NCBI GenBank assembly: GCA_015689735.1 | Contig: WVSP01000002.1 | Span: 1 to 64,000, forward strand | Source of the DNA: Rhodobacterales bacterium LSUCC0031 | Lineage (GTDB): Bacteria > Pseudomonadota > Alphaproteobacteria > Rhodobacterales > Rhodobacteraceae | DNA length: 64,000 nucleotides | Direction of reading: 5' to 3' | Shown: one piece after another, positions 1 to 14,651 of the stretch | Layout: each line of letters opens with the position of its first letter | Numbering within the stretch: the first letter of the stretch is position 1 | Notes under the pieces: model-generated | Database searches by the model: none | Told to the model about the DNA's origin: nothing | What the model saw: only the letters and a program-made list of their open reading frames with translations | Translations under genes and position numbers: made by a program

Positions 1-166
1 GACATGTTGCCGGGATAACCCCGGCACATCACGACCCGGCCCCTGACACGGGGCCGGCGATATCTGGCTCAGGCCAGACCCGCGACAAGGCCCGGAAGGA
101 GGAGCCGGACCGTGTCAGACGACCGCACCCCACGTGTCGGGGAGAGATCTTAGGGAGGAAACCAAG
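1..166 (+). promoter_or_regulatory. Structured leader of the purine permease gene, possible riboswitch
   Basis: The bases ahead of the permease are rich in inverted repeats. Bases 43-51 (CTGACACGG) are a perfect complement of 110-118 (CCGTGTCAG). The core GACACG at 45-50 could instead pair with a second CGTGTC at 133-138, which also lies in the loop of a short CCCC/GGGG hairpin (128-142) just ahead of the ribosome site. Two mutually exclusive pairings ahead of a xanthine-type permease would suit a translational switch. The xanthine-I (NMT1) riboswitch is known upstream of such permeases in alphaproteobacteria, but I cannot confirm its consensus by eye. A purely fortuitous GC-rich fold is possible. 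Confidence 0.3.
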
Positions 167-1582
167 ATGGCCAATGCTTCGATTGGGACGCCGGAACAGC
201 TGCGCGATCCCAACTACACACCACCGCTCGGCAAGGCGATACCTTTGGGTATCCAGCATGTGCTGGCGATGTTCGTCTCCAACGTCACGCCGGCGATTAT
301 CGTTTGCGGCGCAGCCGGTTTCGGCTTTGGCTCGAACAGCCCCGATTTCCCGCAGATGATCTACATGATCCAGATGTGCATGTTCTTTGCAGGAGTTGCG
401 ACGCTGTTTCAGACGATCGGAATCGGCCCGGTCGGCGCGCGCCTGCCCATCGTGCAAGGCACGTCCTTTGCCTTTATTCCGATCATGATCCCACTTGTCG
501 CCGGTAAGGGCGTCGATGCGATGGCGGTCCTGATGGGCGGTATCTTGGTGGGTGGTCTGTTCCATGCTGGCTTGGCGCTGTTTATCGGGCGCATCCGCTT
601 TGCGCTTCCACCCTTGGTGACGGGGTTGGTCGTGATGATGATCGGCTTGGCCTTGGTCAAGGTCGGCATCCAATACGCCGCGGGCGGCGTGCCGGCGATC
701 GGAACGCCCGAATATGGCAGCCTGCAAAACTGGGTGGTCGCAGGCACCGTGGTGGTGGTCACGCTGCTGCTCAAGTTCTTTGCGCGTGGCATGCTGTCGA
801 TCTCGGCGGTATTGCTCGGGATATTGGCAGGTTATGGCGTTGCTTGGGCCTTTGGGATGGTCAGTTTCGGTGCGGTCGGGCGTGCGGCTGTCCTGGCCTT
901 ACCCAACCCGCTCCATTTCGGGCTGGAGTTCTCGGTCGCAGCGATCATCGGGTTCTGCCTGATGGCCTTTGTCTCGGCGGTTGAGACCGTGGGCGATGTC
1001 TCGGGGATCTGTAAAGGTGGGGCTGGGCGCGAAGCGACCGATCGCGAGATCGAGGGCGCAACCTATGCCGATGGGTTCGGGACCGCCGTATCCGGGATTT
1101 TTGGCGCGCTTCCCAACACCTCCTTTAGCCAGAATGTCGGGCTCATCGCGATGACAGGCGTCATGAGTCGCCATGTTGTGACCATCGGCGCGCTCTTCCT
1201 GATCCTTTGTGGTGTGATGCCAAAGGTGGGGGCAATCATCTCGACCGTTCCGATCGAAGTTTTGGGCGGTGGCGTGATCGTGATGTTTGGCATGGTGGTC
1301 GCGGCTGGTATCTCGATGTTGTCGGATGTCCATTGGAACAGGCGCAACATGGTGATCTTTGCCATTGCGTTGTCGCTTGGCCTTGGTTTGCAACTTGAAC
1401 CACAGGCGCTTCAGTATCTGCCCGACACGGTGAAGGTCTTGGCGACCTCGGGGATCTTGCCCGCCGCACTGATCGCAATTGTGCTGAATCTCGTGTTGCC
1501 CAAAGACCTTGCCGCCGAGGCAACCGAGGAGGTCTCGGGTGGGCTGTCCGGCCATGGCAGCGGCAGCATGCCCGGCGAGTAA
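167..1582 (+). CDS. NCS2-family purine (xanthine/uracil-type) permease
   Basis: A 471-residue polytopic inner-membrane protein of the nucleobase:cation symporter-2 family, which imports xanthine, urate or uracil with protons or sodium. Visible family features are the N-terminal PPLGKAIPLGIQHVLAMF segment, the QTIGIGPVGARLPIVQGTSF segment (family motif around TM3), the ETVGD substrate-site motif in TM8 near residue 285, and NTSFSQNVGLI in TM10. The NTSFSQNVG form is typical of xanthine/urate members rather than uracil ones. The ATG at 167 is preferred over an upstream GTG because AGGGAGGA sits 7 bases before it. The gene stands alone and ends in a strong terminator. The exact substrate is inferred. 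Confidence 0.9.
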   Translation: MANASIGTPEQLRDPNYTPPLGKAIPLGIQHVLAMFVSNVTPAIIVCGAAGFGFGSNSPDFPQMIYMIQMCMFFAGVATLFQTIGIGPVGARLPIVQGTSFAFIPIMIPLVAGKGVDAMAVLMGGILVGGLFHAGLALFIGRIRFALPPLVTGLVVMMIGLALVKVGIQYAAGGVPAIGTPEYGSLQNWVVAGTVVVVTLLLKFFARGMLSISAVLLGILAGYGVAWAFGMVSFGAVGRAAVLALPNPLHFGLEFSVAAIIGFCLMAFVSAVETVGDVSGICKGGAGREATDREIEGATYADGFGTAVSGIFGALPNTSFSQNVGLIAMTGVMSRHVVTIGALFLILCGVMPKVGAIISTVPIEVLGGGVIVMFGMVVAAGISMLSDVHWNRRNMVIFAIALSLGLGLQLEPQALQYLPDTVKVLATSGILPAALIAIVLNLVLPKDLAAEATEEVSGGLSGHGSGSMPGE

Positions 1583-1613
1583 GGCCGTCTTATTGCCGCG
1601 CCTTACAGGGCAG

Positions 1614-1645
1614 GACCCCGGTGCCTTTGTGCCGGGGTCTTTTTT
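1614..1645 (+). terminator. Rho-independent terminator of the permease gene
   Basis: An 8-bp stem GACCCCGG/CCGGGGTC (1614-1621 with 1632-1639) is followed directly by six T residues. It lies 31 bases past the permease stop codon. Confidence 0.85.
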
Positions 1646-1783
1646 CTTTGCGCGTCATGCATGGGCCGTCGCACTCATCGCCCGGTTGTCGGCGATCACG
1701 GCCCTTGTGCGCACAGAGTTCAAGTCCTGATGGTCACCAGCGTGGCACCGCAGGCCGACGCCGGCACGGTGATCGCGGAAATT

Positions 1784-1857
1784 TGGAGCGGGCGGCGGGA
1801 ATCGAACCCGCGTCTCTTGCTTGGAAGGCAAGGGTCTTACCATTACACAACGCCCGC
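1784..1857 (-). tRNA. tRNA-Gly (UCC)
   Basis: On the minus strand the acceptor arms GCGGGCG/CGCCCGC, a GGTTCGATTCC T arm and the anticodon stem CTTGC/GCAAG with loop CTTCCAA are all present, giving anticodon UCC. CCA is encoded (plus-strand tgg at 1784-1786). It borders the AT-rich exporter cassette on its 5' side. Confidence 0.95.
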
Positions 1858-2065
1858 ATCACACCTGCCGAGGTAAAGCCCCCCGACCGCCCCGTCAAGC
1901 ACCCAAGCCCCTGCCAAAATGAAGTCACCAATGTCGTGCCAATCGACGGTGACACATGACAACAAGATGGTATTGCAGCGGCCTGCGAAAAGCCGTGTCG
2001 CTCGCTCAACTTGAATCCAGACGCAGACATCAACGGCATGATCATTTACAAGAACACGCAGCATC

Positions 2066-4183
2066 TTAACTGAGCTTGCGGCCCTTCTTTACTTCGACAA
2101 CCTGGCTCTCTTGGATTTCAAAAAGACGGTCAAGGGACTGAATTGTGTTTGGGCGATGTGCGACCACAACACGGGTAATCCCAAGACTTTTAATAGCGGT
2201 ATTTACCTTATGCTCGGTTGCAACATCCAAATTCGATGTGCCTTCGTCAATAAAAAGGATCGATGGGCGGCGATACAATGCGCGTGCCAACTGAAGCCGT
2301 TGAACTTGTCCACCTGAAAGGCTTGACCCCGTGTCACCAACCAAAGTCTCATAGCCCATTGACATCTCAGCGATGTCATCATGGATACATGCAAGCTTTG
2401 CGCAATGTTGAATCCAATCGACATCAGGACTTGGATCAAAAAGTGCAATATTATCTGCAATACTTCCCGAGAAAAGCAGATCATCTTGCATCACAACGGC
2501 AACTTGTCTTCTGAAGTTATTCATATCCAATCGAGAAAGTGGTACATCATCGATCAAGATCTCACCGCTGGTCTTGGGAAGAAGGCCCATCATCATTTTG
2601 AGCAGGGTGGTTTTTCCTGAACCTGATGGTCCGATCAAGCCGACACTTTCACCCTTATTGATTACAAAGCTCGCTTCGTTGATAACTTCCGGTTGCCCGT
2701 CATCATAGCGAAAGGAAACGGATTGAAATTCAATCTTTCCCCTTTCGATTTTTAAAGGAGCTCCTCCGTCTTGATCGGGAGGCGTGGTTGCAATATCTGA
2801 GAGTCTTTCAAGGTGAAGACTTAACATTCTAAATTCAATGACAAGGTCGATCAAGGAAGTGAGGCTCGAATTAAAATGATCGCGATAGGCCATGAAGGCG
2901 AAAATTGCCCCAATTGTAAAGTCGCCTTGCAGAGACATCCTCGCCGCAAGAAAAACAATCAATATACTTGAAAGCCCCTCGATAAGATCCTCAAATGACG
3001 AGAAGCCAATCTCAAATTTTTGAACACGCACTCGTTCGTTGAAGCTTGCAGTAAGGAAGTGCTGCCACCTTTCTTGCCTCGACCGCTCGAGAGCAAAGGC
3101 CTTAATCGTTTGCATGCCCCGCATGTTCTCAATGAACGAACTATTTTCGGCTGCGTTGGCAACGATTTCCGCTTCTGTTGCCCTGTAAAATGATCGGAAA
3201 AGAATAAGCCGCAAGAGAAGAATAGCCGAAAGCGCTCCCAGGCTAACGATTGCCAAAGTCGGGCTGTATAGAAACATAAGCACAAGAGTGCCGATGGCCA
3301 TGATTCCGTCGATAATCCCACTTGTCACTCCCTGGGTCAGGAAATCCTTAATTGGCTCGATAGAGCCAAACCTCGCGACGATGTCGCCCACATGACGACG
3401 TGAAAAGTAAGATAAAGGTAGTCGCAAAAGATGTGAAAACAGATTTATCGAAATATGATAGGCCATCGTAGTCCCGGCATGTAAAATAACCATGCTGCGG
3501 AGTGTTTTTGCCGCAATTTCAAAAACTTGAAAAAGTGCAAATCCGATTGCTATTACAATTAACAGGCTTCGATCGGACGATGGTAAAACATGATCAACAA
3601 CGGTTTGTAGATACTGTGGTATAGCCAGCGTAAAGGCAAGAATGATCGCGCTGAGCAAGAGAACCTGGAGGATGGCACGTCGTAATCCATTTATTCTTGT
3701 CCAGAGTGAAGAAAGACCTAATTTTGTACGTTCATCCTGTGGACGAAAATCTGAGCGTGGTACAAGTTCTAAAGCAATACCTGTGTAGTGTTTTCCGAAT
3801 TCGACTAAGCTTAGCTTGCGTATGCCGATTGCTGGATCATGTATGATCGCCGATTTGTTCGAAATTTGGGCAAGTACGACAAAGTGGTTTAAGTCCCAAT
3901 GAAGGATAGCTGGTCTTTCGACCTTTTCCAAATGTTCGATGTCTACTTTCAATGCACGCGTCGAAAATCCGAGTGTGTTCGCATTCTCCATTAAATCGCG
4001 CAATGTTACACCGCGCGCAGAACCGGGGAACCTACGGCGTAGCGCGGCCATGTCTGTTTGCAGCCCGTAACTACCCGCGACCATCGCCAAACATGCGTTC
4101 GCGCATTCGGCGACTTCAGTTTGGCGGATCATGGGCAAGCTGCCGCGACTGCCGAACAAAGTTTGTGACGGGGGTAGCTGCAT
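2066..4183 (-). CDS. Peptidase-C39 ABC exporter (bacteriocin/double-glycine peptide type)
   Basis: A 705-residue fusion of a C39 leader peptidase (about 15-140), six-helix ABC transmembrane domain (about 160-440) and nucleotide-binding domain (about 470-700). Such proteins cut peptides after a Gly-Gly leader and export the rest with an HlyD-type adaptor and an outer-membrane channel. The peptidase is intact: oxyanion Q21, catalytic C27 in EVAECANACLAM, H100 in DLNHFVVL and D116 in IIHDPA. The NBD has Walker A GPSGSGKTT, signature LSGGQVQRLQLARAL and Walker B ILFIDEGTS. The start lies 3 bases after the adaptor stop codon, so the two are co-translated. The gene is clearly more AT-rich than its neighbours, which suggests acquisition. 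No TolC-like gene is nearby. Confidence 0.92.
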   Translation of the reverse strand: MQLPPSQTLFGSRGSLPMIRQTEVAECANACLAMVAGSYGLQTDMAALRRRFPGSARGVTLRDLMENANTLGFSTRALKVDIEHLEKVERPAILHWDLNHFVVLAQISNKSAIIHDPAIGIRKLSLVEFGKHYTGIALELVPRSDFRPQDERTKLGLSSLWTRINGLRRAILQVLLLSAIILAFTLAIPQYLQTVVDHVLPSSDRSLLIVIAIGFALFQVFEIAAKTLRSMVILHAGTTMAYHISINLFSHLLRLPLSYFSRRHVGDIVARFGSIEPIKDFLTQGVTSGIIDGIMAIGTLVLMFLYSPTLAIVSLGALSAILLLRLILFRSFYRATEAEIVANAAENSSFIENMRGMQTIKAFALERSRQERWQHFLTASFNERVRVQKFEIGFSSFEDLIEGLSSILIVFLAARMSLQGDFTIGAIFAFMAYRDHFNSSLTSLIDLVIEFRMLSLHLERLSDIATTPPDQDGGAPLKIERGKIEFQSVSFRYDDGQPEVINEASFVINKGESVGLIGPSGSGKTTLLKMMMGLLPKTSGEILIDDVPLSRLDMNNFRRQVAVVMQDDLLFSGSIADNIALFDPSPDVDWIQHCAKLACIHDDIAEMSMGYETLVGDTGSSLSGGQVQRLQLARALYRRPSILFIDEGTSNLDVATEHKVNTAIKSLGITRVVVAHRPNTIQSLDRLFEIQESQVVEVKKGRKLS

Positions 4184-4186
4184 TTT

Positions 4187-5425
4187 TTATGTTCTTCTTG
4201 CGACGGAAAGCAACGGATCAAGTAACCAGACAAGAACAGAACGTTCTTCAAGTATGATGTTTGCGTTCAATGTCATGCCGGGTTGAAGTGCTCGTTCTTG
4301 CCCCCTTGCAAACATCGTTTGCTGCGAAAGTGCCACGCGCACACGGTAAACAGGCGCATTTGTTTGAACGGGAAGTGGCGCTCCGCCATGTGGAAGTACC
4401 GTCGCGGAAATGTCGGTAACGCTCCCTTCAAGAGTACCAAAGCGCTGATATGGGAATGCGTCGAGCATTAAATTGACTGACTGGCCGAGTTGGATAAATC
4501 CAATGGCACTACTAGGCACCAAAACTTCAGCTTGTAGCTGCGTATCTGGCGGCAGAACTGAGAAAAGCGTTTGTCCGCTCGTGACACGCTGGCCTGATCG
4601 CGCTTGAACTGTTGTGATGCTTCCGGCGAACGGTGCTTTTACTTCAAAAATTTGTCTGCCCTCGATGATTGCGCGTTCGCTTTCTGCGGCGTTGAGTTCT
4701 GCCGAGATCATCATTTGCTCCATCTCAGCGCGCGCCTGTGCCTGTGCGCGCGCGATGGGAAGAGCCTCATGTTCCGCGATAAGAGTTTCGAGCGCATTCT
4801 CGCTTTCTTGCACCGATGTGCGCGCGCTCAGTAGGCGAATTACCTGTTCAGATAGGGCGGAGACAGCAACAGTGCCGCGTTCAACCAGTGCGCGTTGGCG
4901 CTCTTCGATCGCTTCGTATTCCTGCAAAATTCGCTTTCTGAGGTCTAACTGATCTTGGAGGCGCTCAATCTGTGCAGAAAGGGTTGTTTCACGCCTTTGC
5001 AAATTCTCCAGCTCTAATCTTGCTGCTTCCATCGCAACGTCTTGTCTGACCCGCAGTCCTGCGATCCGCGTATCTAGCCCACGCAATTGTGCCGCTATTC
5101 GTGATGCATTTATGGGGGCCTCGCTGGCTGCACTAACCGATCCGAGAGTTTGCCCTGCCATTACTTTTTGCCCTTCATAAACATTAAGGGCGCTGATTAC
5201 GCCTTCGGCAGGCGATGCAACGATGATCATGCCCGCGCTGGGGACCAAATAGCCGCCGACGCGCTCAATCCTCGGGAACGCGGCGAGAGCGATGAAGGTG
5301 AGCGCGGTCGTCACAAATATGAATAATAAAAAGGTAACGATGCTATATGAAAACGGCGTAGAAACGAGGACATGCCCCGACAGACGTGATCGCCTTTCTT
5401 CAAGTACGGCATCACGAAAAAGCAT
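4187..5425 (-). CDS. HlyD-family membrane fusion (adaptor) protein
   Basis: A 412-residue type I secretion adaptor. One N-terminal membrane helix (about 28-50) follows a short cytoplasmic tail. It is followed by a biotinyl/lipoyl-like half (GMIIVASPAEGVISALNVYEGQKVMAGQ), a long coiled coil (about 95-235, with LENLQRRETTLSAQIERLQDQL) and a second lipoyl half (IFEVKAPFAGSITTVQARSGQRVTSGQ) with the beta-barrel end. This is the CvaA/HlyD layout that links the inner-membrane ABC exporter to an outer-membrane channel. ATG at 5425 is chosen; a GTG two codons earlier is possible and neither has a clear ribosome site. It lies between the leader-peptide gene and the C39 exporter. Confidence 0.88.
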   Translation of the reverse strand: MLFRDAVLEERRSRLSGHVLVSTPFSYSIVTFLLFIFVTTALTFIALAAFPRIERVGGYLVPSAGMIIVASPAEGVISALNVYEGQKVMAGQTLGSVSAASEAPINASRIAAQLRGLDTRIAGLRVRQDVAMEAARLELENLQRRETTLSAQIERLQDQLDLRKRILQEYEAIEERQRALVERGTVAVSALSEQVIRLLSARTSVQESENALETLIAEHEALPIARAQAQARAEMEQMMISAELNAAESERAIIEGRQIFEVKAPFAGSITTVQARSGQRVTSGQTLFSVLPPDTQLQAEVLVPSSAIGFIQLGQSVNLMLDAFPYQRFGTLEGSVTDISATVLPHGGAPLPVQTNAPVYRVRVALSQQTMFARGQERALQPGMTLNANIILEERSVLVWLLDPLLSVARRT

Positions 5426-5514
5426 GGTCACACAGGCACAATGTTAACAATCGAGGCACCTCAGCTTGGCACTGGCAAAGCGGCCTGTTGCTGGCCTCAA
5501 GCAGGCGCGCAAGA

Positions 5515-5551
5515 CCGAAAAATAACAGGCCTCGATTTTCACAAGGCCTGT
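5515..5551 (-). terminator. Minus-strand hairpin terminator/attenuator between precursor and adaptor genes
   Basis: Read on the minus strand, ACAGGCCT and AGGCCTGT (5544-5551 and 5525-5532) form a perfect 8-bp stem around an 11-base loop, followed by TTATTTTTT. It sits between the 186-aa precursor gene and the HlyD gene. It would partly terminate transcription, so that the exported protein outnumbers its exporter, an arrangement common in bacteriocin clusters. Confidence 0.7.
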
Positions 5552-5585
5552 CAATTTCATGAAATCAGGTCAGATCAGATTGGCG

Positions 5586-6146
5586 TTACGCCGTCGCATG
5601 CTCTTGCAAAAGCAGCGAATTGACGTCGCCATTGAACGCCTCAGCAGGCAGGCAGCGCAGGCCGAGTTGATCGTAGTTTACGCCGTAAAACCCTTTGAAC
5701 GGACCTTCGGCAAAGGTGAAGACAGCCGAGGCGAGGTCAGCGCGCGCCAAAAGATCTTGCGCCATGACGCCAACAAAGCGTTCACCGGGCAGATCCGTGT
5801 ACTCCCAAGAGTAAATCGTCAGCGCGTGGCTGGAAAGATGTCCCTCAACCCGCACATCAGTCTTGATGCGGATGTCGGAGCCGAAACCGCCGCTCATCGC
5901 GTTACGAACCTTCTTTGCGCTGGCTCTCCGGCTATGACCATGTGCTGTTGCTGGTTGGACAGTCCCTCTTCCCCGCTTTGCCGCATTTTTAATGAGCGCC
6001 CCCTTGGCCAAGATCGCAATCTTGGTAGCCACCAACATCCCAAGAAGCTGGAATGCCCCGCCTGCAACAGTTTCGCATTGTGCTGGGCTCAATTCTACCA
6101 GCCCGTCAGATTTGTTGTTCGCCTTACGCGTTGCGATCACTTCCAT
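5586..6146 (-). CDS. Double-glycine leader protein with C-terminal Peptidase_S74-like domain
   Basis: A 186-residue protein read as the exported substrate of the adjacent transporter. Residues 18-30 (ELSPAQCETVAGG) match a Gly-Gly leader: L at -12, hydrophobic residues at -7 and -4, GG at -2/-1. Residues 31-56 are hydrophobic and 57-82 strongly basic (Arg, Lys, His). A second GG (86-87) precedes SDIRIKTD at 90-97, which opens a region resembling the intramolecular chaperone/peptidase S74 domain of phage tail fibres: IYSWEY (111-116), RFVGVMAQD (123-131), GVNYDQLGL (155-163). The S90/K95 spacing matches the Ser-Lys pair used for self-cleavage in S74 proteins. The ATG has GGGAGA upstream. What the released product does is unknown. 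Confidence 0.75.
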   Translation of the reverse strand: MEVIATRKANNKSDGLVELSPAQCETVAGGAFQLLGMLVATKIAILAKGALIKNAAKRGRGTVQPATAHGHSRRASAKKVRNAMSGGFGSDIRIKTDVRVEGHLSSHALTIYSWEYTDLPGERFVGVMAQDLLARADLASAVFTFAEGPFKGFYGVNYDQLGLRCLPAEAFNGDVNSLLLQEHATA

Positions 6147-6228
6147 CGCATTCTCCCTTACTTGAGTTACTGAATTCGATGCCTGCGCTTGGCAGCGTCC
6201 TCCCTTTGCAGCACACCGAAAATCAAAA

Positions 6229-6256
6229 GATATAGTTATTACAATTTAGTCAACAA
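6229..6256 (-). promoter_or_regulatory. Possible promoter of the GG-leader precursor gene
   Basis: On the minus strand, TTGTTG (6251-6256) and TATATC (6229-6234) are 16 bases apart, in an AT-rich stretch 83 bases ahead of the precursor start. This is a sigma-70-like match by eye only. Confidence 0.3.
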
Positions 6257-6277
6257 ATTTTACCATAAGTGATTATA

Positions 6278-6330
6278 GGGTGAGTTTGGCAGCCGCCAGG
6301 CAGCCACATAGGGGTCAATTTTACACAACA
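6278..6330 (-). repeat. Possible relic of an IS21-type insertion-sequence end
   Basis: Read on the minus strand from 6330, the tract starts with TGT and carries TAAAATTGACCCCTATG followed about 25 bases later by CAAACTCACCCTATAA. The two related blocks recall the multiple terminal repeats of IS21-family ends. No istA or istB gene is visible, so this is at most a remnant. It coincides with the right edge of the AT-rich cassette. Confidence 0.22.
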
Positions 6331-6633
6331 TCTCAGGTGTTTGATCGGATCTTCGTTCATGGCGATGATTGGTGGCATGGGAGATGGGGTGCAACACGCC
6401 CACGCGGTCTCAGAGGGGTTGCGAGGCAGAGCATTTTCGGTTTTGCGGTGTTCGAATCGCACCGGGTTGGGATGGGCATGACGGCCAAAAGCCTGCTGAT
6501 GCGGTTGCAACCCAAGGTTGCATCACGCGCGTCCTGACCCTTTTCGCCTTCACGCGGTGACGCGTCAGCCCGTCCTCTTGCGTCGATGCCGCCCTGCCTG
6601 TAACGCCAAGGAAAGCAACGCGCAGAAGGCCTG

Positions 6634-8454
6634 ATGACGTCACAATCCACCACCAGCCCGAAAGCCGCAGCGCCCGTTGGGGCCAGCGAAGAACGGGCCA
6701 AATCCCGCCACATCGGCAGCTTGCGCGCGCTTTTACCCTTCATGGCGCCCTATCGCGCGATGATCATGGCCGCGATGGCCGCGCTGATCGTGACGGCGAT
6801 GGTGTCGCTTACGCTTCCCCTTGCGGTCAGGCGCGTCGTCGATGGGTTCGAATCCGAAGCCGCGGCGCTGCTCGACAAGTATTTCCTTGCGGCCCTTGGC
6901 ATCGCCACACTGCTCGCGCTGGGAACTGGCCTGCGCTACTATCTTGTGACGCGGCTGGGCGAACGTGTCGTGGCCGATATCCGCAAGGCCGTGTTCGACC
7001 GCATGATCGCGATGAGCCCGGCCTTCTATGAAAAGATCATGACCGGCGAGGTCTTGAGCCGGATCACGACCGATACCACGCTCTTGCTCTCGGTCATCTC
7101 CTCCTCGGTGTCGGTGGCGTTGCGCAACCTTCTGATCCTGATCGGTGGCTTGGCGCTGATGATGGTGACATCGCCCAAGCTGACGGGGGCGGTTTTGCTG
7201 ATCGTGCCATTGATCATCGTGCCGATCGTGGTTTTGGGCCGCCGCCTGCGTAACCTCAGCCGCGAAAATCAGGATTGGATCGCCGAAAGCTCGGGCAACG
7301 CGTCCGAGGCGCTGTTGTCGGTGCAGACGGTGCAGGCCTTTACCCATGAGCGCGCATCGGCCGGCACCTTCGACGCGGTGACCGAGAAAAGTTTTGACAG
7401 CGCCAAGAAACGCATCGCCACCCGCGCGGTGATGACGGTGATCGTGATTGCGTTGGTTTTCGCGGGCATTGTCGGCGTCTTGTGGACAGGCGCGCGCGAT
7501 GTCCGCGCCGATGCGATGAGCGTGGGGGAGCTGATCCAATTCCTGATCTATGCCATCATGGTCGCGGGTTCCGTCGGCGCGCTGTCGGAAATCTGGGGCG
7601 AGTTGCAGCGCGCCTCGGGCGCGACCGAGCGGCTGGTGGAACTGCTGCGCACCGATGATAGCGTCGCCGACCCCGCCCAGCCCATCGCCTTGCCCCAGGG
7701 CGGGCGCGGTGCCATCGCCTTTGAGGATGTGCGCTTTTCCTACCCCACCCGGCCCGAGACTTCGGCGCTTGACGGGGTCGGTTTCACCATCCGGCCCGGC
7801 GAGACCGTGGCGTTGGTTGGGCCTTCGGGCGCTGGCAAATCGACGATTTTCCAGCTGCTTTTGCGCTTTTACGATCCGATTTCTGGGCGCATCACGCTCG
7901 ATGGGGCCGATCTGCGCGACATGACGCGCGCCAATTTCCGCGCGGCGATGGCCTTGGTGCCACAAGACCCTGTGATCTTTGCGGCCTCGGCGCGTGAAAA
8001 CATCCGCTTCGGCCGCCCCGATGCCTCTGATGCCGAGGTGGAAGAGGCCGCAAAAGCCGCCGCCGCGCACGATTTCCTGACTGCCTTGCCGCAGGGCTAT
8101 GACACCTATGTGGGCGAGCGTGGCCTGATGCTGTCGGGTGGGCAGAAGCAGCGCATCGCCATCGCCCGCGCCATCTTGCGCGACGCGCCCATTCTTTTGT
8201 TGGATGAGGCGACAAGCGCGCTGGATGCGGAATCTGAGCGCGCGGTGCAGGACGCGGTCACACGCCTTTCGGCGGGGCGGACGACACTGATCGTGGCGCA
8301 TCGCTTGGCCACCGTGAAACAGGCCGACCGCATCCTTGTGTTCGAGGCGGGCAAGATCGTCGCCGAAGGCACGCATGACGCGCTTGTAGCCCAAGGCGGG
8401 CTTTACGCGCGTCTGGCGCGGCTGCAATTCACTGAAGGTTTGGCCGCCGAATAA
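6634..8454 (+). CDS. MsbA-like ABC exporter (fused permease/ATPase)
   Basis: A 606-residue half-transporter that works as a homodimer in the inner membrane. The transmembrane domain spans about 35-325; the ATPase follows from about 355 with Walker A GPSGAGKST, Q loop PQDPVIFAAS, signature LSGGQKQRIAIARAIL, Walker B ILLLDEATSALD and switch His in VAHRLATV. Its layout matches the lipid/drug exporter group (MsbA, BmrA, LmrA). The stop codon lies 25 bases before the DNA glycosylase gene, so the two are probably co-transcribed. The substrate cannot be read from the sequence; lipid A, a lipid or a toxic compound are all possible. Confidence 0.85.
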   Translation: MTSQSTTSPKAAAPVGASEERAKSRHIGSLRALLPFMAPYRAMIMAAMAALIVTAMVSLTLPLAVRRVVDGFESEAAALLDKYFLAALGIATLLALGTGLRYYLVTRLGERVVADIRKAVFDRMIAMSPAFYEKIMTGEVLSRITTDTTLLLSVISSSVSVALRNLLILIGGLALMMVTSPKLTGAVLLIVPLIIVPIVVLGRRLRNLSRENQDWIAESSGNASEALLSVQTVQAFTHERASAGTFDAVTEKSFDSAKKRIATRAVMTVIVIALVFAGIVGVLWTGARDVRADAMSVGELIQFLIYAIMVAGSVGALSEIWGELQRASGATERLVELLRTDDSVADPAQPIALPQGGRGAIAFEDVRFSYPTRPETSALDGVGFTIRPGETVALVGPSGAGKSTIFQLLLRFYDPISGRITLDGADLRDMTRANFRAAMALVPQDPVIFAASARENIRFGRPDASDAEVEEAAKAAAAHDFLTALPQGYDTYVGERGLMLSGGQKQRIAIARAILRDAPILLLDEATSALDAESERAVQDAVTRLSAGRTTLIVAHRLATVKQADRILVFEAGKIVAEGTHDALVAQGGLYARLARLQFTEGLAAE

Positions 8455-8479
8455 GGCGGGTAGGGGCAGGGCGTGTGAG

Positions 8480-9682
8480 ATGAACCTGCCTGTGATCGAC
8501 AACCAGAGCGCGCGGCGGCTGTTTCTCGATGCCCATGCGCTGATGGAGCGGCCAACGGGGCTGGGGAAGGGCGCGGACCTGGCCGATCTGATCGGGCGCT
8601 TGGGCTTTGTGCAGGTCGATAGCGTCAACACGATGGCGCGCGCCCACGACTTGATCTTGTGGTCGCGCCAGAACGCCTATCGCCCCGAAGCGCTGCGCAT
8701 GCTCAACGACCGCGACCGCGCCACCTTCGAGCATTGGACCCATGATGCCGCCGTGATCCCGGCGGCTTTCTTTCCCTATTGGCGGTTGCGTTTTGCCCGC
8801 GACCGAGCGCGCCTGCGGGAGAGGTGGAAGGATTGGCATGGATCCGCTTTCCATGCCGAGATCGACACGGTCTTGCGCCACGTCAGCGACCATGGCGCGG
8901 TTCATTCCGCCGAGATTGGAGAAAAGCGCGCCGAGAAATCGACTGGCTGGTGGGATTGGCACCCCTCCAAGATCGCGCTGGAATACCTCTGGCGCACGGG
9001 AGACTTGGCGATCACGCGGCGCGAGGGGTTCCGCAAATTCTACGATCTGACCGCGCGCGTGATCCCGCCTGCGCATCTGAACGCCCATATCCCCGAGAAT
9101 GGCGTGATCGACTGGGCCTGCCGCAGCGCGCTTGACCGCTTGGGCTTTGCCACGCCTGGGGAACTCGCGGCTTTCTGGGCGCTGATCACGCCGCTTGAGG
9201 CCAAGGCTTGGGCTGAGGCAGCGCGCGCGCGCGGTGAACTTGCCGAGGCGATGATCGTGGATGCGACAGGCGCGCAGCGGCGCGTCGTGATCTGGCCCGA
9301 CACCTTGGCGGGCCTCCTGCATGATTTGCCAAATCCTGTACCGCGCATGCGGGTGCTGTCGCCCTTCGACCCCGCCCTACGCGACCGCAAACGCGCCGAG
9401 CGGCTGTTTGGGTTTTCCTATCGGATCGAGATATTCGTGCCGGAGGCGCAGCGCCGCTATGGCTATTATGTCTTTCCGCTGATGGAGGGCGACCGCATGG
9501 TGGGCCGTATCGACATGCGCGCTGAACGCGAGACTGGGCGCTTGCATGTCCGCGCGCTGTGGCCCGAGGCAGGGATCGATTGGGGCCAAGGACGGCAAGG
9601 CAGGCTTGAGGCAGAGTTGCACAGGCTTTTGCCATTGGCCGGGTGTGAGAGCGTCATCTTTGCCAATAATTTCCTACAATAA
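8480..9682 (+). CDS. YcaQ/AlkX-type winged-helix DNA glycosylase
   Basis: A 400-residue HTH_42 (DUF1006) family protein. Members fold as three winged helices and remove alkylated or crosslinked bases; E. coli YcaQ (AlkX) unhooks interstrand crosslinks. The catalytic Q-hydrophobic-D motif is present as Q45-V46-D47 in GFVQVDSVNTM, followed by the family stretch RAHDLILWSR. The conserved FEHWTHDAAVIP segment and the C-terminal PFDPALRDRKRAERLFGFSYRIE...RYGYYVFPLMEG segment are also typical. The QxD form places it with AlkX rather than with AlkZ (QxQ). It follows the ABC exporter after 25 bases, a pairing that could serve tolerance to DNA-crosslinking compounds (inference). Confidence 0.85.
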   Translation: MNLPVIDNQSARRLFLDAHALMERPTGLGKGADLADLIGRLGFVQVDSVNTMARAHDLILWSRQNAYRPEALRMLNDRDRATFEHWTHDAAVIPAAFFPYWRLRFARDRARLRERWKDWHGSAFHAEIDTVLRHVSDHGAVHSAEIGEKRAEKSTGWWDWHPSKIALEYLWRTGDLAITRREGFRKFYDLTARVIPPAHLNAHIPENGVIDWACRSALDRLGFATPGELAAFWALITPLEAKAWAEAARARGELAEAMIVDATGAQRRVVIWPDTLAGLLHDLPNPVPRMRVLSPFDPALRDRKRAERLFGFSYRIEIFVPEAQRRYGYYVFPLMEGDRMVGRIDMRAERETGRLHVRALWPEAGIDWGQGRQGRLEAELHRLLPLAGCESVIFANNFLQ

Positions 9683-9744
9683 TATTTTATAATCAGAGCT
9701 TTGGTAGTATTTTTTAATGTAAAACCTTAATCTGCGTATCTGTG

Positions 9745-10548
9745 TTAGGTCATGCGTCGCGCAAGATCGGTCAGCGCTGAAAAAGCAAAAGCCACCGCTG
9801 CCACGCATACGATCGAAGGACCAGCTGGTGTATCGAGGTGATAGGCCAAGATCATGCCCAGCACCGCTGACCCTGCGCCGATACTCGCCGCGATCAGCGC
9901 CATCGCTTCGGGTGTGCGGGCAAAGCTGCGTGCGGCTGCGGCCGGAATGATCAGCAGCGCTGCGATCAACAACACCCCCACCACCTTGATCGCGACGGCC
10001 ACGACCACGGCAAGCGCCAAGGTCAGGATCATCTGCTCGCGGCGGGGTGCGATACCTGCCGCCGTTGCCAGATCAGCCGAGAGTGTTGCTGTCAACAGCG
10101 CCGACCAGCGCGCCCAGATCAGCGCGATGACCAACACCGCCCCGGCCCAGATGACCGCAAGATCGGCGCGCCCCACCGCCAAGATATCACCAAACAGATA
10201 GGCCGACAGATCTAGCCGTACGCCCTGCAAGAGCGAGACCGCGACCAGACCCGCGGCCAAGGCCGAATGTGACAAGACCCCCAAAAGCGTGTCCATCGCG
10301 CGCCCCCGTCCCGCCAGGGCCGAGACCGACAGCGCCATGGCCAAGGCCATGACGAGCGTCCCGATCATGATGGACAGGTTAAAGGCCAAGGCCAATGCGA
10401 CGCCCAGGATCGCGGCATGTGCGGTGGCATCACCGAAATAGGCCATGCGCCGCCAGACGATGAAACACCCCAAGGGGGCGGCCGCTAGCGCCACGCCGAT
10501 CCCCGCCAGCGTCGCGCGGATCAAGAAATCATCCAAGAGTGCGCTCAT
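9745..10548 (-). CDS. znuB: Zinc ABC transporter permease ZnuB
   Basis: A 267-residue ABC-3 family membrane subunit with about eight hydrophobic segments, starting with FLIRATLAGIGVALAAAPLGCFIVWRRMAYFGDATAHAAILG, the family's N-terminal signature. It forms the channel for zinc passed on by ZnuA, with ZnuC as ATPase. The start codon overlaps the znuC stop (ATGA), so it is the last gene of a zur-znuC-znuB operon. The neighbouring Zur regulator and the His-rich binding protein point to zinc rather than manganese or iron. Confidence 0.93.
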   Translation of the reverse strand: MSALLDDFLIRATLAGIGVALAAAPLGCFIVWRRMAYFGDATAHAAILGVALALAFNLSIMIGTLVMALAMALSVSALAGRGRAMDTLLGVLSHSALAAGLVAVSLLQGVRLDLSAYLFGDILAVGRADLAVIWAGAVLVIALIWARWSALLTATLSADLATAAGIAPRREQMILTLALAVVVAVAIKVVGVLLIAALLIIPAAAARSFARTPEAMALIAASIGAGSAVLGMILAYHLDTPAGPSIVCVAAVAFAFSALTDLARRMT

Positions 10549-11300
10549 GGTGCCGCCTCGTGGTGGTGAACATGCGGATGGTCATGATCGTGATCATGTC
10601 CATGGGCATGTTCGTGCCGGTAAAGCGCCAGCGCCCCTTGCGTGCCGGTGCCGAAAAGCGCGCGATATTCGGGGGCCGAGGCCACCTGTTCGGGATGCCC
10701 CGCGCAGCAGACATGCCCGTTGAGGCAGATCACCCGGTCGGAGGCCGCCATCACCACATGCAATTCATGGCTGACCATGACAACGGCACACCCAAGCTCG
10801 GCCCGCACCTCGGCAATGCGGCGGTAAAACGCTGCCGATCCGGGTTGGTCCAAGCCTTGGGTCGGTTCGTCGAGGATCAACAGATCGGGCTTGGATAGGA
10901 TCGCCCGCGCGAGAAGCACACGCTGGAATTGCCCACCCGAGAGATCGGCCATCTGCCGTGCGCCCAAGCTGCCGGCACCCGCCCTTATCAGTGCTTCGGT
11001 CGCGACCGCTTCGGGGATGCGCGTGGGCAGGTCGAGAAAGCGCCGCACCGTGAGTGGCAATGTCGGGTCGATATGCAGCTTTTGCGGCACATAACCAATG
11101 CGCAGTCCCGGCTTGCGCCAGACAACACCCGAAAACGGCCGCTCTGCCCCGATCAAAAGCCGCAACAAGGTTGATTTGCCCGACCCGTTCGGGCCAACAA
11201 TCGTCACGATCTCACCCGGTGAGATGTCGAAATCCACTCCTTGCAACACGCTTTGGCCACCAAAGCGCATATCGACCTTGTCCAATCTGGCAAGATTCAT
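10545..11300 (-). CDS. znuC: Zinc ABC transporter ATP-binding protein ZnuC
   Basis: A 251-residue ABC ATPase with Walker A GPNGSGKST near residue 37, signature LSGGQFQRVLLARAIL, Walker B LLILDEPTQGLD and switch MVSHELHVV. The C-terminus is His-rich (HEHAHGHDHDHDHPHVHHHE), which is seen in ZnuC proteins and fits zinc handling. ATG at 11300 is chosen because it overlaps the zur stop (ATGA); znuC in turn overlaps znuB by 4 bases. It powers zinc import across the inner membrane. Confidence 0.93.
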   Translation of the reverse strand: MNLARLDKVDMRFGGQSVLQGVDFDISPGEIVTIVGPNGSGKSTLLRLLIGAERPFSGVVWRKPGLRIGYVPQKLHIDPTLPLTVRRFLDLPTRIPEAVATEALIRAGAGSLGARQMADLSGGQFQRVLLARAILSKPDLLILDEPTQGLDQPGSAAFYRRIAEVRAELGCAVVMVSHELHVVMAASDRVICLNGHVCCAGHPEQVASAPEYRALFGTGTQGALALYRHEHAHGHDHDHDHPHVHHHEAAP

Positions 11301-11800
11301 GATGGGTTGGCCTTGCCACAGCTTGGGCAAAGCCCTTCGGCCTCGATCACGCTACGGGTGATGGTAAAGCCGACGGTCTTGGCAGTTTGTGACAAGGCAG
11401 CGCGCGCGGCATCCGGCACGGCCTCGGCCACGCTGCCGCAGCCTGTGCAAATCAAGAAAGCCGCATCGTGATCGGCGCCGGGATGGCTACAGGCCGCAAA
11501 GGCGTTCAGCCGCTCGATCCGGTGGGCAAAGCCGTGCTTGGTCAAAAACTCCAAGGCGCGATAGGCGACCGGCGGTTGCGAGCCCAACCCTTCGTCCCGC
11601 AAGACATCGAGGATTTCATAGGCGCCCAAGGCGCGGTGGCGTTCCAGCAAGATCTCCAGCACGCGGCGGCGCACCGGGGTCAGGTGTAATCCATCTTCGG
11701 CACAGCGCATGGCCACCGCCGCGACCGTATCCGCGATGCATGCGCTATGGTCGTGACGGGCAAAGCCGATCGGTTGGGGCAGGGTGGGCGTGGCTGTCAT
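11297..11800 (-). CDS. zur: Zinc uptake regulator Zur (Fur family)
   Basis: A 167-residue Fur-type repressor. The N-terminal winged helix (LTPVRRRVLEILLERHRALGAYEILDVLRDEG) is followed by a dimerisation half with the His-rich metal site (CSHPGADHDAAFLICTGCGSV) and a second Cys pair (CPSC), together the structural zinc site. With zinc bound it represses zinc uptake genes. It heads the zur-znuC-znuB operon and is divergent from znuA; two candidate Zur boxes lie in the 74 bases between, so it probably represses itself as well. Confidence 0.93.
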   Translation of the reverse strand: MTATPTLPQPIGFARHDHSACIADTVAAVAMRCAEDGLHLTPVRRRVLEILLERHRALGAYEILDVLRDEGLGSQPPVAYRALEFLTKHGFAHRIERLNAFAACSHPGADHDAAFLICTGCGSVAEAVPDAARAALSQTAKTVGFTITRSVIEAEGLCPSCGKANPS

Positions 11801-11811
11801 GGGCTATTGAT

Positions 11812-11823
11812 ATGTTATTGCAT
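11812..11823. promoter_or_regulatory. Candidate Zur box 1
   Basis: ATGTTATTGCAT matches the 12-base palindrome ATGTTATAACAT at 10 of 12 positions. It lies 11 bases upstream of the zur start, between zur and znuA. Confidence 0.55.
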
Positions 11824-11850
11824 TACGTCTAACAAGTGGCCGAAGTTGTT

Positions 11851-11862
11851 ATGTTATCACAT
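11851..11862. promoter_or_regulatory. Candidate Zur box 2
   Basis: ATGTTATCACAT matches the palindrome ATGTTATAACAT at 11 of 12 positions. It lies 12 bases before the znuA start and 27 bases from box 1, so one or both could serve the divergent promoters. Confidence 0.6.
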
Positions 11863-11874
11863 ATGAGGATTGCG

Positions 11875-12996
11875 ATGCACACGCCCAAGCTGGTTTGTCT
11901 GACTGCTTTGCCCTTGCTTTTTGGCGCAGCTGCGCATGCCGAGGTGCCTCGGGTGGCGGTTGATACCGCGCCGGTCCATGCCTTGGTCGCCCAAGTGATG
12001 GACGGGGTCGGGGCGCCGATACTGGTGGTGCCGCCCGGTGCTTCGCCGCATGGCTACGCGCTGCGCCCGTCTGAGGCGGCGGCGCTGCAAGGGGCCGATC
12101 TGGTGGTCTGGGTCGGGCCAGAGCTGACACCCTGGCTGGCCGATCCGCTGGCGACACTTGCCCCCGATGCGGCGCGGCTGGCCCTGCTTGGCGTCGAAAA
12201 TGTGCGTTTGCTGGACTATCGCGACGGTGTTCGCTTTGCCGATCATGATCACGGCGACCATGCAGAACAGGGCGAGACACACGCTCATGACGATCATGCC
12301 GAGGATGACCACAAGCATGGCGCGCATGATCATCATGATGACCATAAAAATGACGACCACGACCATCATGATCACGGCCACGGCCATGATGACCATGGGC
12401 ATGAGGAGCACGGCCACGAGGACCATGGCAATGGCCACGGTCACGAAGACCACGATCACGAAGACCACGGGCATGACCATTCCGGCACCGATCCGCATGC
12501 GTGGCTTGACCCGGTCAATGCGGCCCTGTGGCTTGGCGCCATCGCCGATGAATTGTCGCGCCTCGACCCCGACAATGCCGCGCATTACGCGGCGAATGCG
12601 ACACGCGCACAGGCAGGCTTGACCGCGCTGGAGGCCGACATCGCGGCGCGTATGGCGCCGCTGCGGGGCAAATTCATCGTCTTCCACGATGCCTATCACT
12701 ATTTCGAGGCACGCTTCGGCGTCGAGGCGGCAGGCGCAATCAGCCTGTCAGATGCCGCACCGCCCGGCCCTGCGCGCGTCGCCGAGATTCGCGATCTCGT
12801 TGCCGATCAGTCCATCACCTGTGTCTTTGCCGAGCCGCAATTCAACCGTGGTTTGGTTGATGCGGTCTTTGAGGGGACAGGCGTCACCATCGGTGTGATC
12901 GATCCGATCGGTGCCACGTTGAGCCCCGGGGGCGCGCTTTACGGGGCGCTGTTGGAGGGTGTGGCCGCGTCGTTCGAGGCGTGTTTGGGCAATTAA
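11875..12996 (+). CDS. znuA: Zinc-binding periplasmic protein ZnuA with long His-rich loop
   Basis: A 373-residue cluster-9 solute-binding protein. A signal peptide (MHTPKLVCLTALPLLFGAAAHAE) is followed by two alpha/beta lobes; zinc ligands are expected from SPHGYALRPSEAAALQ (first His), TDPHAWLDP and FHDAYHYF. Between the first two lies an unusually long run of His, Asp and Glu (about residues 121-204) made of HDH/HGH repeats, the charged metal-sensing loop of ZnuA, here very large. ATG at 11875 is preferred since GAGGA lies 5 bases upstream; an in-frame ATG at 11863 is possible. Transcribed divergently from zur. Confidence 0.93.
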   Translation: MHTPKLVCLTALPLLFGAAAHAEVPRVAVDTAPVHALVAQVMDGVGAPILVVPPGASPHGYALRPSEAAALQGADLVVWVGPELTPWLADPLATLAPDAARLALLGVENVRLLDYRDGVRFADHDHGDHAEQGETHAHDDHAEDDHKHGAHDHHDDHKNDDHDHHDHGHGHDDHGHEEHGHEDHGNGHGHEDHDHEDHGHDHSGTDPHAWLDPVNAALWLGAIADELSRLDPDNAAHYAANATRAQAGLTALEADIAARMAPLRGKFIVFHDAYHYFEARFGVEAAGAISLSDAAPPGPARVAEIRDLVADQSITCVFAEPQFNRGLVDAVFEGTGVTIGVIDPIGATLSPGGALYGALLEGVAASFEACLGN

Positions 12997-14651
12997 CCAT
13001 CGGCGCTCTGCGCGCGGATGGCTGCAATATGGCTGAGGGTCGCTTGCGCCTTTTCGGTGGCCAAGGCGAGGTTTTCACCCAAGTGGTCGAGCGCAGCGGC
13101 ATCGGATTGGTTGGTTGTGGCTTGCTCGATTGCGCGCAAGGCGGCGCCCAGCTCGTGAAATCCGGCCATCAAGGCCGCACCTGCGGCGCGATGTGCGGTC
13201 TCGGCGCAACGTGATCGGTCTTGTGCGATCTCGTCCAAGGCTTGGGTGGCCAAATTCACCGTATCTTGCAAAAGCGCCATGCCAAGCGTGTCGCCGCACA
13301 TCTCGAGTGTCGCCGATAACAGCGCCAACTCGTCCGCGCTGAGTGCAAAGCTGCCAGGGTCGGGCAAGGGTGGCCCGATCTTGAGGCAGGACTGCAACTC
13401 CACCAAACCGAAAGGCTTCAACAAGACATGCCCAAAAGATCCTGTCGTCATGGCTGCGCCTATGGCATCGATCTGTGCCGTAATCCCGATGATTGCGGCG
13501 TCGGCCGATGGCCCGGCTGATCTGATCCGCGCGGCTGCGTCTTGGCCGCTCATGCCGGGCAGTTGGAAATCCATCAAGATCAGCCCATAGGCGGTCCTTG
13601 CGGTTTGCGCGACCGCGTCTTCGCCAGAAAAGGCAACATCAACGTGAAAGCCAAGCGCAGAGAGCATCTGTGCGACCAAGGTGCAGTTTACCTCGGCATC
13701 ATCGACCACAAGCGCGGTGTTGCGCCTCACCTCAAGCCGGCTTGGTGTATGCGGCAGGGCGGGGACGGGCATGTCGGCGGGGCGGGCATTATCCAAGTAC
13801 TGATCTGTTTGGCGCAGGGCCTCCGCGCAGTTTTGCTGGGCTACTTTCACCAATTGCAGCGCCGATCCAGTGAGCGATTGCCGCCGCAGCAAATCGAGCG
13901 CGGCGCGCAAGCCCTGGAGCGGCGTGCGCATGTCGTGGTTCATGCTTGCCAAGAAACCGCGCTGCGCAGTCACTTGTGCAGGGGTCGCGTGGTCGGCAGC
14001 GTGTTCGCGCCCCAACATCAGGGCAAAGCCAGTTGCCAAGCTTGCCAGCACCAGCATTGTCGCACTCAAGCAGATCATAGCACCATTCATATAGCGCGCT
14101 TGCGCGCGCTGAGCCGTTATTTTTGCTAATAAATCTTGCTGTGCCTCGCGTTTGAGCCGTTCCACTTTCTCGCCGAGTGCGCCGGCCTCTTGATGCAGGA
14201 GGGCCATCATGCGGGTAAATTCGGGTGTTATCTTTGCGGCGCGTATTTTCGCGTCCATGGCAATGCATCCGGCATGGAGCTCGGTCATGAGTGCCGCGAA
14301 TTCAGGTGAAAGACCGTGATGGTCCAATTCCGCGAAGGCCAGTCGCATCCCGGCATCGAAGCGGTCAAAAGCCATTTTCAAATGCGCCATCGCGATGACC
14401 GTGTCGGGGTAGGGCGACGTACGGGTGATCAATTCTGCCATATGCGCAGCGGTTACCAGATCGCGATACTCGGCTGCGAATTGCGTGATTTTCCAAATGT
14501 CCGTGCCTGCATCGTCACGGTGCGAGGTGTAGACCGTTTCCGAAAGTTTGATCGCCGAACACACAAACAAGAGGGCGAGAACAACCAATAGTGCAATGCG
14601 CATGCGGGCGTTCCGCTCCATGTCCCACAATGACAAAAATGGGCGGTTCAT
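12993..14651 (-). CDS. Hybrid histidine-kinase-like protein lacking the ATPase domain (HisKA-REC-Hpt)
   Basis: A 552-residue membrane protein. Transmembrane helices (about 18-36 and 188-212) enclose a helical periplasmic sensor. A HisKA helix pair follows with the H box SMNHDMRTPLQG (H239), then at once a receiver (about 310-420; D360 in LILMDFQLPGMSG, KPFG near 411) and an Hpt-like end (H486 in TAHRAAGAALMAG). No N, G1 or G2 boxes of an HATPase_c domain lie between the HisKA helices (ending near 285) and the receiver, so it cannot bind ATP in the usual way. It may relay phosphate from another kinase or act as a phosphatase. The divergent NarL-type regulator is a likely partner. The start at 14651 is uncertain; 14621 is an alternative. 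Confidence 0.75.
   Translation of the reverse strand: MNRPFLSLWDMERNARMRIALLVVLALLFVCSAIKLSETVYTSHRDDAGTDIWKITQFAAEYRDLVTAAHMAELITRTSPYPDTVIAMAHLKMAFDRFDAGMRLAFAELDHHGLSPEFAALMTELHAGCIAMDAKIRAAKITPEFTRMMALLHQEAGALGEKVERLKREAQQDLLAKITAQRAQARYMNGAMICLSATMLVLASLATGFALMLGREHAADHATPAQVTAQRGFLASMNHDMRTPLQGLRAALDLLRRQSLTGSALQLVKVAQQNCAEALRQTDQYLDNARPADMPVPALPHTPSRLEVRRNTALVVDDAEVNCTLVAQMLSALGFHVDVAFSGEDAVAQTARTAYGLILMDFQLPGMSGQDAAARIRSAGPSADAAIIGITAQIDAIGAAMTTGSFGHVLLKPFGLVELQSCLKIGPPLPDPGSFALSADELALLSATLEMCGDTLGMALLQDTVNLATQALDEIAQDRSRCAETAHRAAGAALMAGFHELGAALRAIEQATTNQSDAAALDHLGENLALATEKAQATLSHIAAIRAQSADG

Follow-up and report, generated by a model that had tools for sequence, protein, structure and literature searches.

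A short S74 domain on the predicted cargo of a class II microcin-like export cassette in a Rhodobacterales bacterium

Export systems of the microcin V type are composed of a precursor, an immunity protein, a C39 exporter, an adaptor and TolC. The S74 domain is familiar mainly from the tail fibres of phages, in which it aids folding and then cuts itself off. A precursor with a double-glycine (GG) leader is part of the definition of a class II microcin, and immunity proteins are described as hard to recognise (excerpts of PMC9746304). In the exporter CvaB, the residue pairs relevant here are Q26-C32 and H105-D121 (excerpt of PMC3335142). Self-cleavage of S74 requires the dyad residues S911/K916 in endoNF and S587/K592 in MyRF, and in MyRF it is stopped by alanine at either position; MyRF trimerizes chiefly through a three-helix coiled coil at its C-terminus, and cleavage requires the trimer (excerpts of PMC8326128). 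Although the earlier note on this DNA regarded S74 as a domain of phage fibres and spikes, it is not confined to phages, being found also in bacterial proteins with many different N-termini and in MYRF of animals and amoebae (excerpts of PMC3742443).

Here we describe a locus at which an S74 domain sits on what, judging from its sequence, is a precursor of the class II microcin type. This is a real fusion, met once more in another genome, in which the predicted cargo of a microcin-like export cassette (class II) ends in a short S74 domain.

The cassette and its genomic setting

The window is the whole stretch of DNA that was analysed, 64,000 nucleotides from Rhodobacterales bacterium LSUCC0031. 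The features discussed below are as follows.

1784..1857, minus strand: tRNA-Gly (tcc) adjoining the insert (tRNA call)
1905..6556, no strand: low-GC insert of 4.65 kb that holds the precursor, adaptor and exporter genes (GC content and break against genome G1029)
2066..4183, minus strand: C39 peptidase-containing ABC exporter, 705 aa (Peptidase_C39 E=1.1e-33, ABC_membrane, ABC_tran)
4187..5431, minus strand: HlyD-family membrane fusion protein, the adaptor, 414 aa (HlyD_3 E=6.4e-22)
5523..5553, minus strand: terminator-like hairpin, 12 pairs then a T run, separating the precursor from the exporter genes
5586..6146, minus strand: precursor with GG leader and S74 domain, 186 aa (ORF list; PF13884 18.6 bits; homologue in L042)
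6057..6146, minus strand: precursor leader, residues 1-30, ending LSPAQCETVAGG (strict GG motif)
5880..6056, minus strand: precursor middle segment, residues 31-89, hydrophobic and then strongly basic, charge about +11
5589..5879, minus strand: short S74 domain, residues 90-186, with S90/R93/K95 and GVMAQ (PF13884, alignment A3, L042 comparison)
6153..6158, minus strand: RBS-like AGGGAG, six bases 5' of the precursor ATG (sequence)

The open reading frame that the earlier note had picked out for its canonical GG leader lies at 5586..6146, and the leader motif LSPAQCETVAGG occupies residues 19-30. It is followed by a strongly basic middle segment, or core, of 59 residues and by an acidic S74 domain. 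The strict leader pattern matches 2 of the 691 window ORFs of 30-250 aa, and 23 of 18,447 such ORFs in 20 shuffled windows. Because about 0.9 matches are thus expected per window by chance, the motif by itself says little; it gains its weight from the fact that the ORF adjoins a C39 exporter, is the only strict match within window positions 1-14,000 and recurs in a second genome, that of Alphaproteobacteria bacterium AO1-B (L042).

A C39 exporter is encoded next to the precursor, and this linkage recurs in L042 in a different gene order. Its C39 catalytic triad (C27, H100, D116) is intact, and the Q21-C27 and H100-D116 spacings equal those of CvaB. A TolC-like protein is encoded outside the cassette, on contig C1, as one 498-residue frame with two OEP matches. 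The hairpin that follows the precursor gene would allow cargo to be produced in excess of exporter. A scan of the sequence returned 7 terminator-like sites against 6.5 expected in shuffles, and the stem at 5523..5553 is the longest of the 7; the promoter scan rose little above chance (5 versus 3.9 expected, sd 1.8). No immunity candidate was found near the precursor among leftover ORFs of at least 40 aa whose larger part falls outside the cassette genes (7 of them in window 1860-6640, 2 in L042 5868-11400), in which the highest 19-residue mean hydropathy is at most 1.15.

Related exporters help to place the cargo. When two candidates per genome were scored, 6 of 394 family genomes, the window's own included, contained an exporter match at E<=1e-100. 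The closest other exporters are those of L038 and L039, and the stretches read around them contain strict GG-leader ORFs of 57, 64, 75 and 105 aa (the strict pattern was applied to these two genomes, and a looser, noisy pattern to all five other exporter genomes). The exporter tree does not split the window and L042 from L038 and L039 with support. Since the exporters of L038 and L039 adjoin small GG-leader ORFs, the GG-S74 protein seems to occupy the slot of a microcin-like precursor. For the same reason we favour one half of the earlier suggestion of a peptide or adhesin export system: the peptide reading is the better supported, the adhesin reading less so. The glycine-rich 105-aa GG-leader ORF near the related C39 exporter at L039:4531-4848 has a weak Bacteriocin_IIc match (E=0.024, under the cut-off) and is, from its sequence features, a candidate alphaproteobacterial microcin-like peptide.

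The three genes lie in an insert. GC content is 0.43-0.55 in the cassette versus 0.57-0.66 in the flanks, and homology to the same-genus genome G1029 stops at window position 1904 and restarts at 6557, with 121 bases between these points in G1029. The cassette was apparently acquired. The insert contains no further ORF longer than 86 aa mainly outside the three genes, and thus has no room for a usual integrase. Its flanks encode Xan_ur_permease and AlkZ-like proteins (Pfam), and the ORF at 6634-8454 resembles an ABC exporter on inspection by eye. In three other members of the genus, about 0.5, 3 and 5 kb of other DNA lie between the tRNA-Gly and the next conserved gene; the different DNA at this site in two of them (L201:3291-6365, about 3 kb; L202:3027-7901, about 5 kb) suggests that the tRNA-Gly may be an insertion hot spot. 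We considered a phage remnant and rejected it, given ordinary flanking genes and a six-row S74 clade with no viral row in a poorly resolved tree. A search of the source genome with PF13884 at E<=0.001 returned nothing, a limit that the window's own domain also misses.

The S74 domain and its relatives

The C-terminal S74 pattern rested on four motifs, all of which we located: SDIRIKTD at residues 90-97, IYSWEY at 111-116, VGVMAQD at 125-131 and VNYDQL at 156-161. Within them lies a Ser-Lys dyad five residues apart with an Arg at +3 (S90, R93, K95). The PF13884 search proposed in the earlier note gave a divided answer, as the window protein alone falls below the cut-off (18.6 versus 22 bits, E=0.0023) and the L042 homologue passes it (31.3 bits, E=2.6e-7). 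In alignment A3, whose rows were mostly trimmed to the domain and chosen with an SD-type motif, 70 of 70 members match PF13884 at E<=0.01, the window protein included; K95, Y116, A129 and Q130 are present in 70/70 rows and R93 in 69/70. Similar stretches bear the annotation tail fiber domain or peptidase S74 in the 20 plasmid records listed out of 33 and in 4/4 phage records. Taken together, the L042 score, the A3 matches and these annotations settle the homology, so that the C-terminal region of the precursor is placed in the S74 family through its relatives. Matches to PDB sequences were not significant (A1 versus 6f45, E=0.061, and 3gud, E=0.071; A3 versus 8jov, E=0.12).

A scan of genomes from 84,980 species yielded 145 pattern matches and 90 relatives, of which the best 80 were kept (41 of these 80 loci are at least 20 kb long). 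Counted without preselection, the SDxRxK motif is present in 79 of the 80 S74 ORFs, the sole exception being an ORF that begins only within the domain. By crude patterns, the N-termini of these best 80 of 90 relatives comprise 15 long, 11 Sec-like, 9 lipobox-like, 5 lasso-like, 1 GG and 39 other. In the S74 tree (built from no more than 45 bacterial and 20 viral rows, chosen by best E-value), the window and L042 form a clade with support 100/92, and a six-row clade with support 100/99 unites them with L043-L046 and holds no viral row; beyond these clades the tree is poorly resolved, with few columns relative to its rows, many open forks and a bootstrap that had not settled. L043 and L046 are from Yoonia and Roseovarius, L044 and L045 are from uncultured bacteria, and all four are long S74-capped proteins, two with Ig/cadherin-like repeats.

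Several of the relatives occur in settings of their own. In a Roseovarius MAG (L046:65-9786), type III secretion genes (FliP, Bac_export_1, Bac_export_2) on one side and a T3SS ATPase gene on the other flank the gene of a 1436-aa protein that combines Big_9 and Cadherin_5 domains with a C-terminal S74. On Rhizobium plasmids, an S74 gene directly follows a caspase-family gene (L016:3016-7592, L017:3076-6339, L018:3047-7588) and in 2 of these 3 loci is itself followed by an isoprenylcysteine methyltransferase-like gene. One Rhizobiaceae MAG (L052:9668-10827) has two tandem S74 genes with YEKPTV-type N-termini. L061:8809-12146 is a RiPP-like cluster with PqqD, Transglut_core3, NTP_transf_5 and an ORF with a kinase-like P-loop (by eye), in which the S74 protein (9890-10291) has the lasso-like N-terminus YQKPTLDKRSKLSAIS; we take this N-terminus to resemble those of lasso precursors, and the neighbouring genes presumably correspond to ones with roles in lasso systems. 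Such enzymes were absent among the two neighbours scanned at L053, and the NCBIfam lasso models matched none of ten proteins scanned. The cluster at L061 hints at a wider theme.

Within the best 80 of 90 relatives, a C39 match lies nearby in only one, L042. The cassette there is complete, in the order adaptor, exporter, GG-S74, which differs from that of the window. Identity between the two genomes is 35% for the adaptor, 54% for the exporter and 47% over 178 columns for the precursor, whose leader in L042 ends LTLEECDQVSGG. In L042 3,000-14,000, the strict GG pattern matches the GG-S74 gene and one 50-aa ORF on the opposite strand 2.2 kb away. The same arrangement in another alphaproteobacterium makes the pairing of GG leader and S74 look real, and the difference in gene order speaks for a functional reason behind the preserved linkage. 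Identical residues number 7/30 in the leader, 18/48 in the middle and 59/96 aligned in the S74 domain, and the core charge is +11 in the window and -1 in L042; a diverging middle with a kept S74 domain is as expected of variable cargo with a constant processing part. Weak bacteriocin-profile matches (cyan_ocin_like, 0.013, for the window precursor; MccV, 0.069, and cerein 7B family, 0.034, for that of L042) all lie under their cut-offs and are not taken as proof.

Recurrence of the GG-S74 and C39 cassette therefore rests on two genomes: the search for further GG-leader S74 proteins next to C39 exporters, suggested in the earlier note, brought up L042 and no third case among 394 family, 385 class, 390 order and 398 phylum genomes (overlapping sets). 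The window protein found matches in 15/394 family genomes, its own included, and 12 of the 14 others align with the S74 part only. The other two look like chance, one (G062, residues 27-95) in a frame that holds a stop and one (G171, residues 59-151) in which the S74 motif is not visible. Thirteen of these 14 neighbourhoods were read, and they show no adaptor match and two generic ABC matches, in L029 and L031. A2 searches matched 2/385 class, 6/390 order and 3/398 phylum genomes, own included, with the leader covered by the own match only. C39, ABC and adaptor matches were all absent around 50 relatives from the viral scan, and none of the plasmid (33) and phage (4) protein records spans 80% of the query. 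Among the matches listed from open-licence PMC, S74 was not found paired with a GG-leader, microcin, bacteriocin or lasso precursor; in the excerpts of PMC9990079, an intramolecular chaperone comes up once, in a cited reference about an Rhs effector.

Proposed maturation and its alternatives

We propose that the precursor is the cargo of the neighbouring C39 exporter, that it is cut at GG30, and that its S74 cap then cleaves itself off and releases the middle peptide. We give this reading as a whole a probability of about 0.45. Export of the precursor and cleavage after GG30 by the C39 domain are very probable, and the exporter, the HlyD-type adaptor and the TolC-like protein encoded elsewhere would export the remainder. 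Once outside the cell, the S74 domain would fold and serve as a C-terminal assembly and processing cap. In the simplest outcome, the S90-K95 dyad would cut at G89/S90, freeing a peptide of about 59 residues with a hydrophobic start (62 residues in L042). Self-cleavage and activity of the peptide are the hypothetical part of this scheme; we speculate that the freed peptide would probably be used against, or sensed by, related bacteria. The CvaB-like triad spacing, the recurrence in L042, the GG-leader ORFs near the L038 and L039 exporters, the dyad spacing and the hairpin at 5523..5553 speak for the mechanism. Against it stand the absence of a MyRF-type trimer helix, the lack of an immunity candidate among the ORFs surveyed, core charges of +11 versus -1, low leader identity (7/30), a pairing seen in two genomes only and a GG motif hardly above chance.

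The missing helix bears on the S74 step. From length and sequence, a trimerizing C-terminal helix is absent from the precursor, in which 28 residues, Pro and Gly included, follow Y158. Across 79 bacterial relatives the S74 domains end 61-143 residues past the Ser (a contig end truncates the shortest), and among 36 viral S74 ORFs found by related motifs 32 end 65-87 residues past it, the remaining 4 falling outside the motif used; the short type of S74 thus exists in viral contigs too. Self-cleavage of the precursor domain is possible from its dyad, and with the helix absent we do not file the precursor as a trimeric self-cleaving ICA domain. Loss of this helix is also what one would expect if the protein were exported through C39 and trimmed at GG30 but its S74 domain stayed uncut, as a folded cap or binding head of a secreted or surface protein. 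Many bacterial proteins and viral ORFs end in short S74 domains, and the nearest domain relatives cap long proteins. Retention of SDxRxK even in short versions (79/80) tells against this idea, because a mere cap would not obviously need the motif, and we regard an uncut head as a tentative possibility.

It is rather improbable that S74 acts as a self-protection prodomain, which would mask a possibly membrane-active middle peptide in the producer, replace an immunity protein and be removed outside. That none of the leftover ORFs (7 in the window, 2 in L042) has a membrane segment, with 19-residue mean hydropathy never above 1.15, fits such a role, as does the pairing of an acidic S74 domain with a strongly basic window core; but the L042 core is not basic, and immunity proteins, being hard to recognise (excerpts of PMC9746304), could be encoded elsewhere. 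We consider it very improbable that the gene is an accidental fusion or decaying gene, in which a bacteriocin leader became joined, without function, to the end of a phage tail fibre. Such an accident would agree with a pairing found in two genomes only among the scans, but not readily with an open frame, a ribosome site and an intact exporter, nor with a 47% identical homologue that has the same linkage in L042. The six-row clade without a viral row points the same way, as does a source genome without a PF13884 match at E<=0.001, although the window's own domain misses that limit too.

The proposed release of the middle peptide by a self-removing S74 cap could have a broader counterpart, which we regard as doubtful at present: bacteria may have co-opted the S74 domain of phages, placing it at the C-terminus of secreted, leader-bearing peptides as a cap that removes itself. 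Peptides of this kind would mature at both ends, the leader being removed by C39, or by a transglutaminase-like protease in the RiPP-like cluster of L061, and the tail by S74 itself. The cap would act as folding sensor and self-protection, and the latter could explain the missing immunity gene.

Comparison with described systems

If the proposed maturation is correct, a GG-leader peptide carries its own second protease domain and matures at both ends, a double-ended maturation that we did not meet among the matches listed from the open-licence PMC literature. Peptide export would then join the settings of the S74/ICA domain, which has been studied in fibres of phages and in MYRF, and the cassette would offer a small system for asking whether S74 cuts without a trimer helix. 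These data also suggest that mining restricted to small precursors could miss genes of the GG-S74 type.

The S74 domains closest to that of the window are in the long S74-capped proteins L043-L046, which, unlike the window precursor, are 633-1436 aa in length (with L045, at 926 aa, truncated by the end of its contig) and are without GG in their first 60 residues. A short C-terminal S74 domain is shared with the Rhizobium-plasmid 'tail fiber domain-containing protein' and with Rhodobacteraceae relatives. The short bacterial S74 proteins differ from that of the window in having other N-termini, and the other 79 scanned loci have no C39 match nearby.

As in the S74/ICA domains of endoNF and MyRF, the precursor has a Ser-Lys dyad at +5 and an Arg at +3 (excerpts of PMC8326128), and, as in MyRF, a G-x-x-A-Q motif, which we tentatively map onto that of MyRF. 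Unlike those domains, it has no C-terminal coiled-coil helix, and what lies upstream of its S74 domain is a leader peptide and short core rather than a beta-helical stalk.

In contrast to class II microcin cassettes, the precursor is 186 aa long with an S74 domain, and an immunity gene was not found among the ORFs surveyed. For the latter reason we do not file the cassette as a microcin. What it shares with class II cassettes of the microcin V type is the GG leader, the C39 exporter with its triad, the HlyD-type adaptor and also a TolC-like protein, whose gene lies in another part of the genome.
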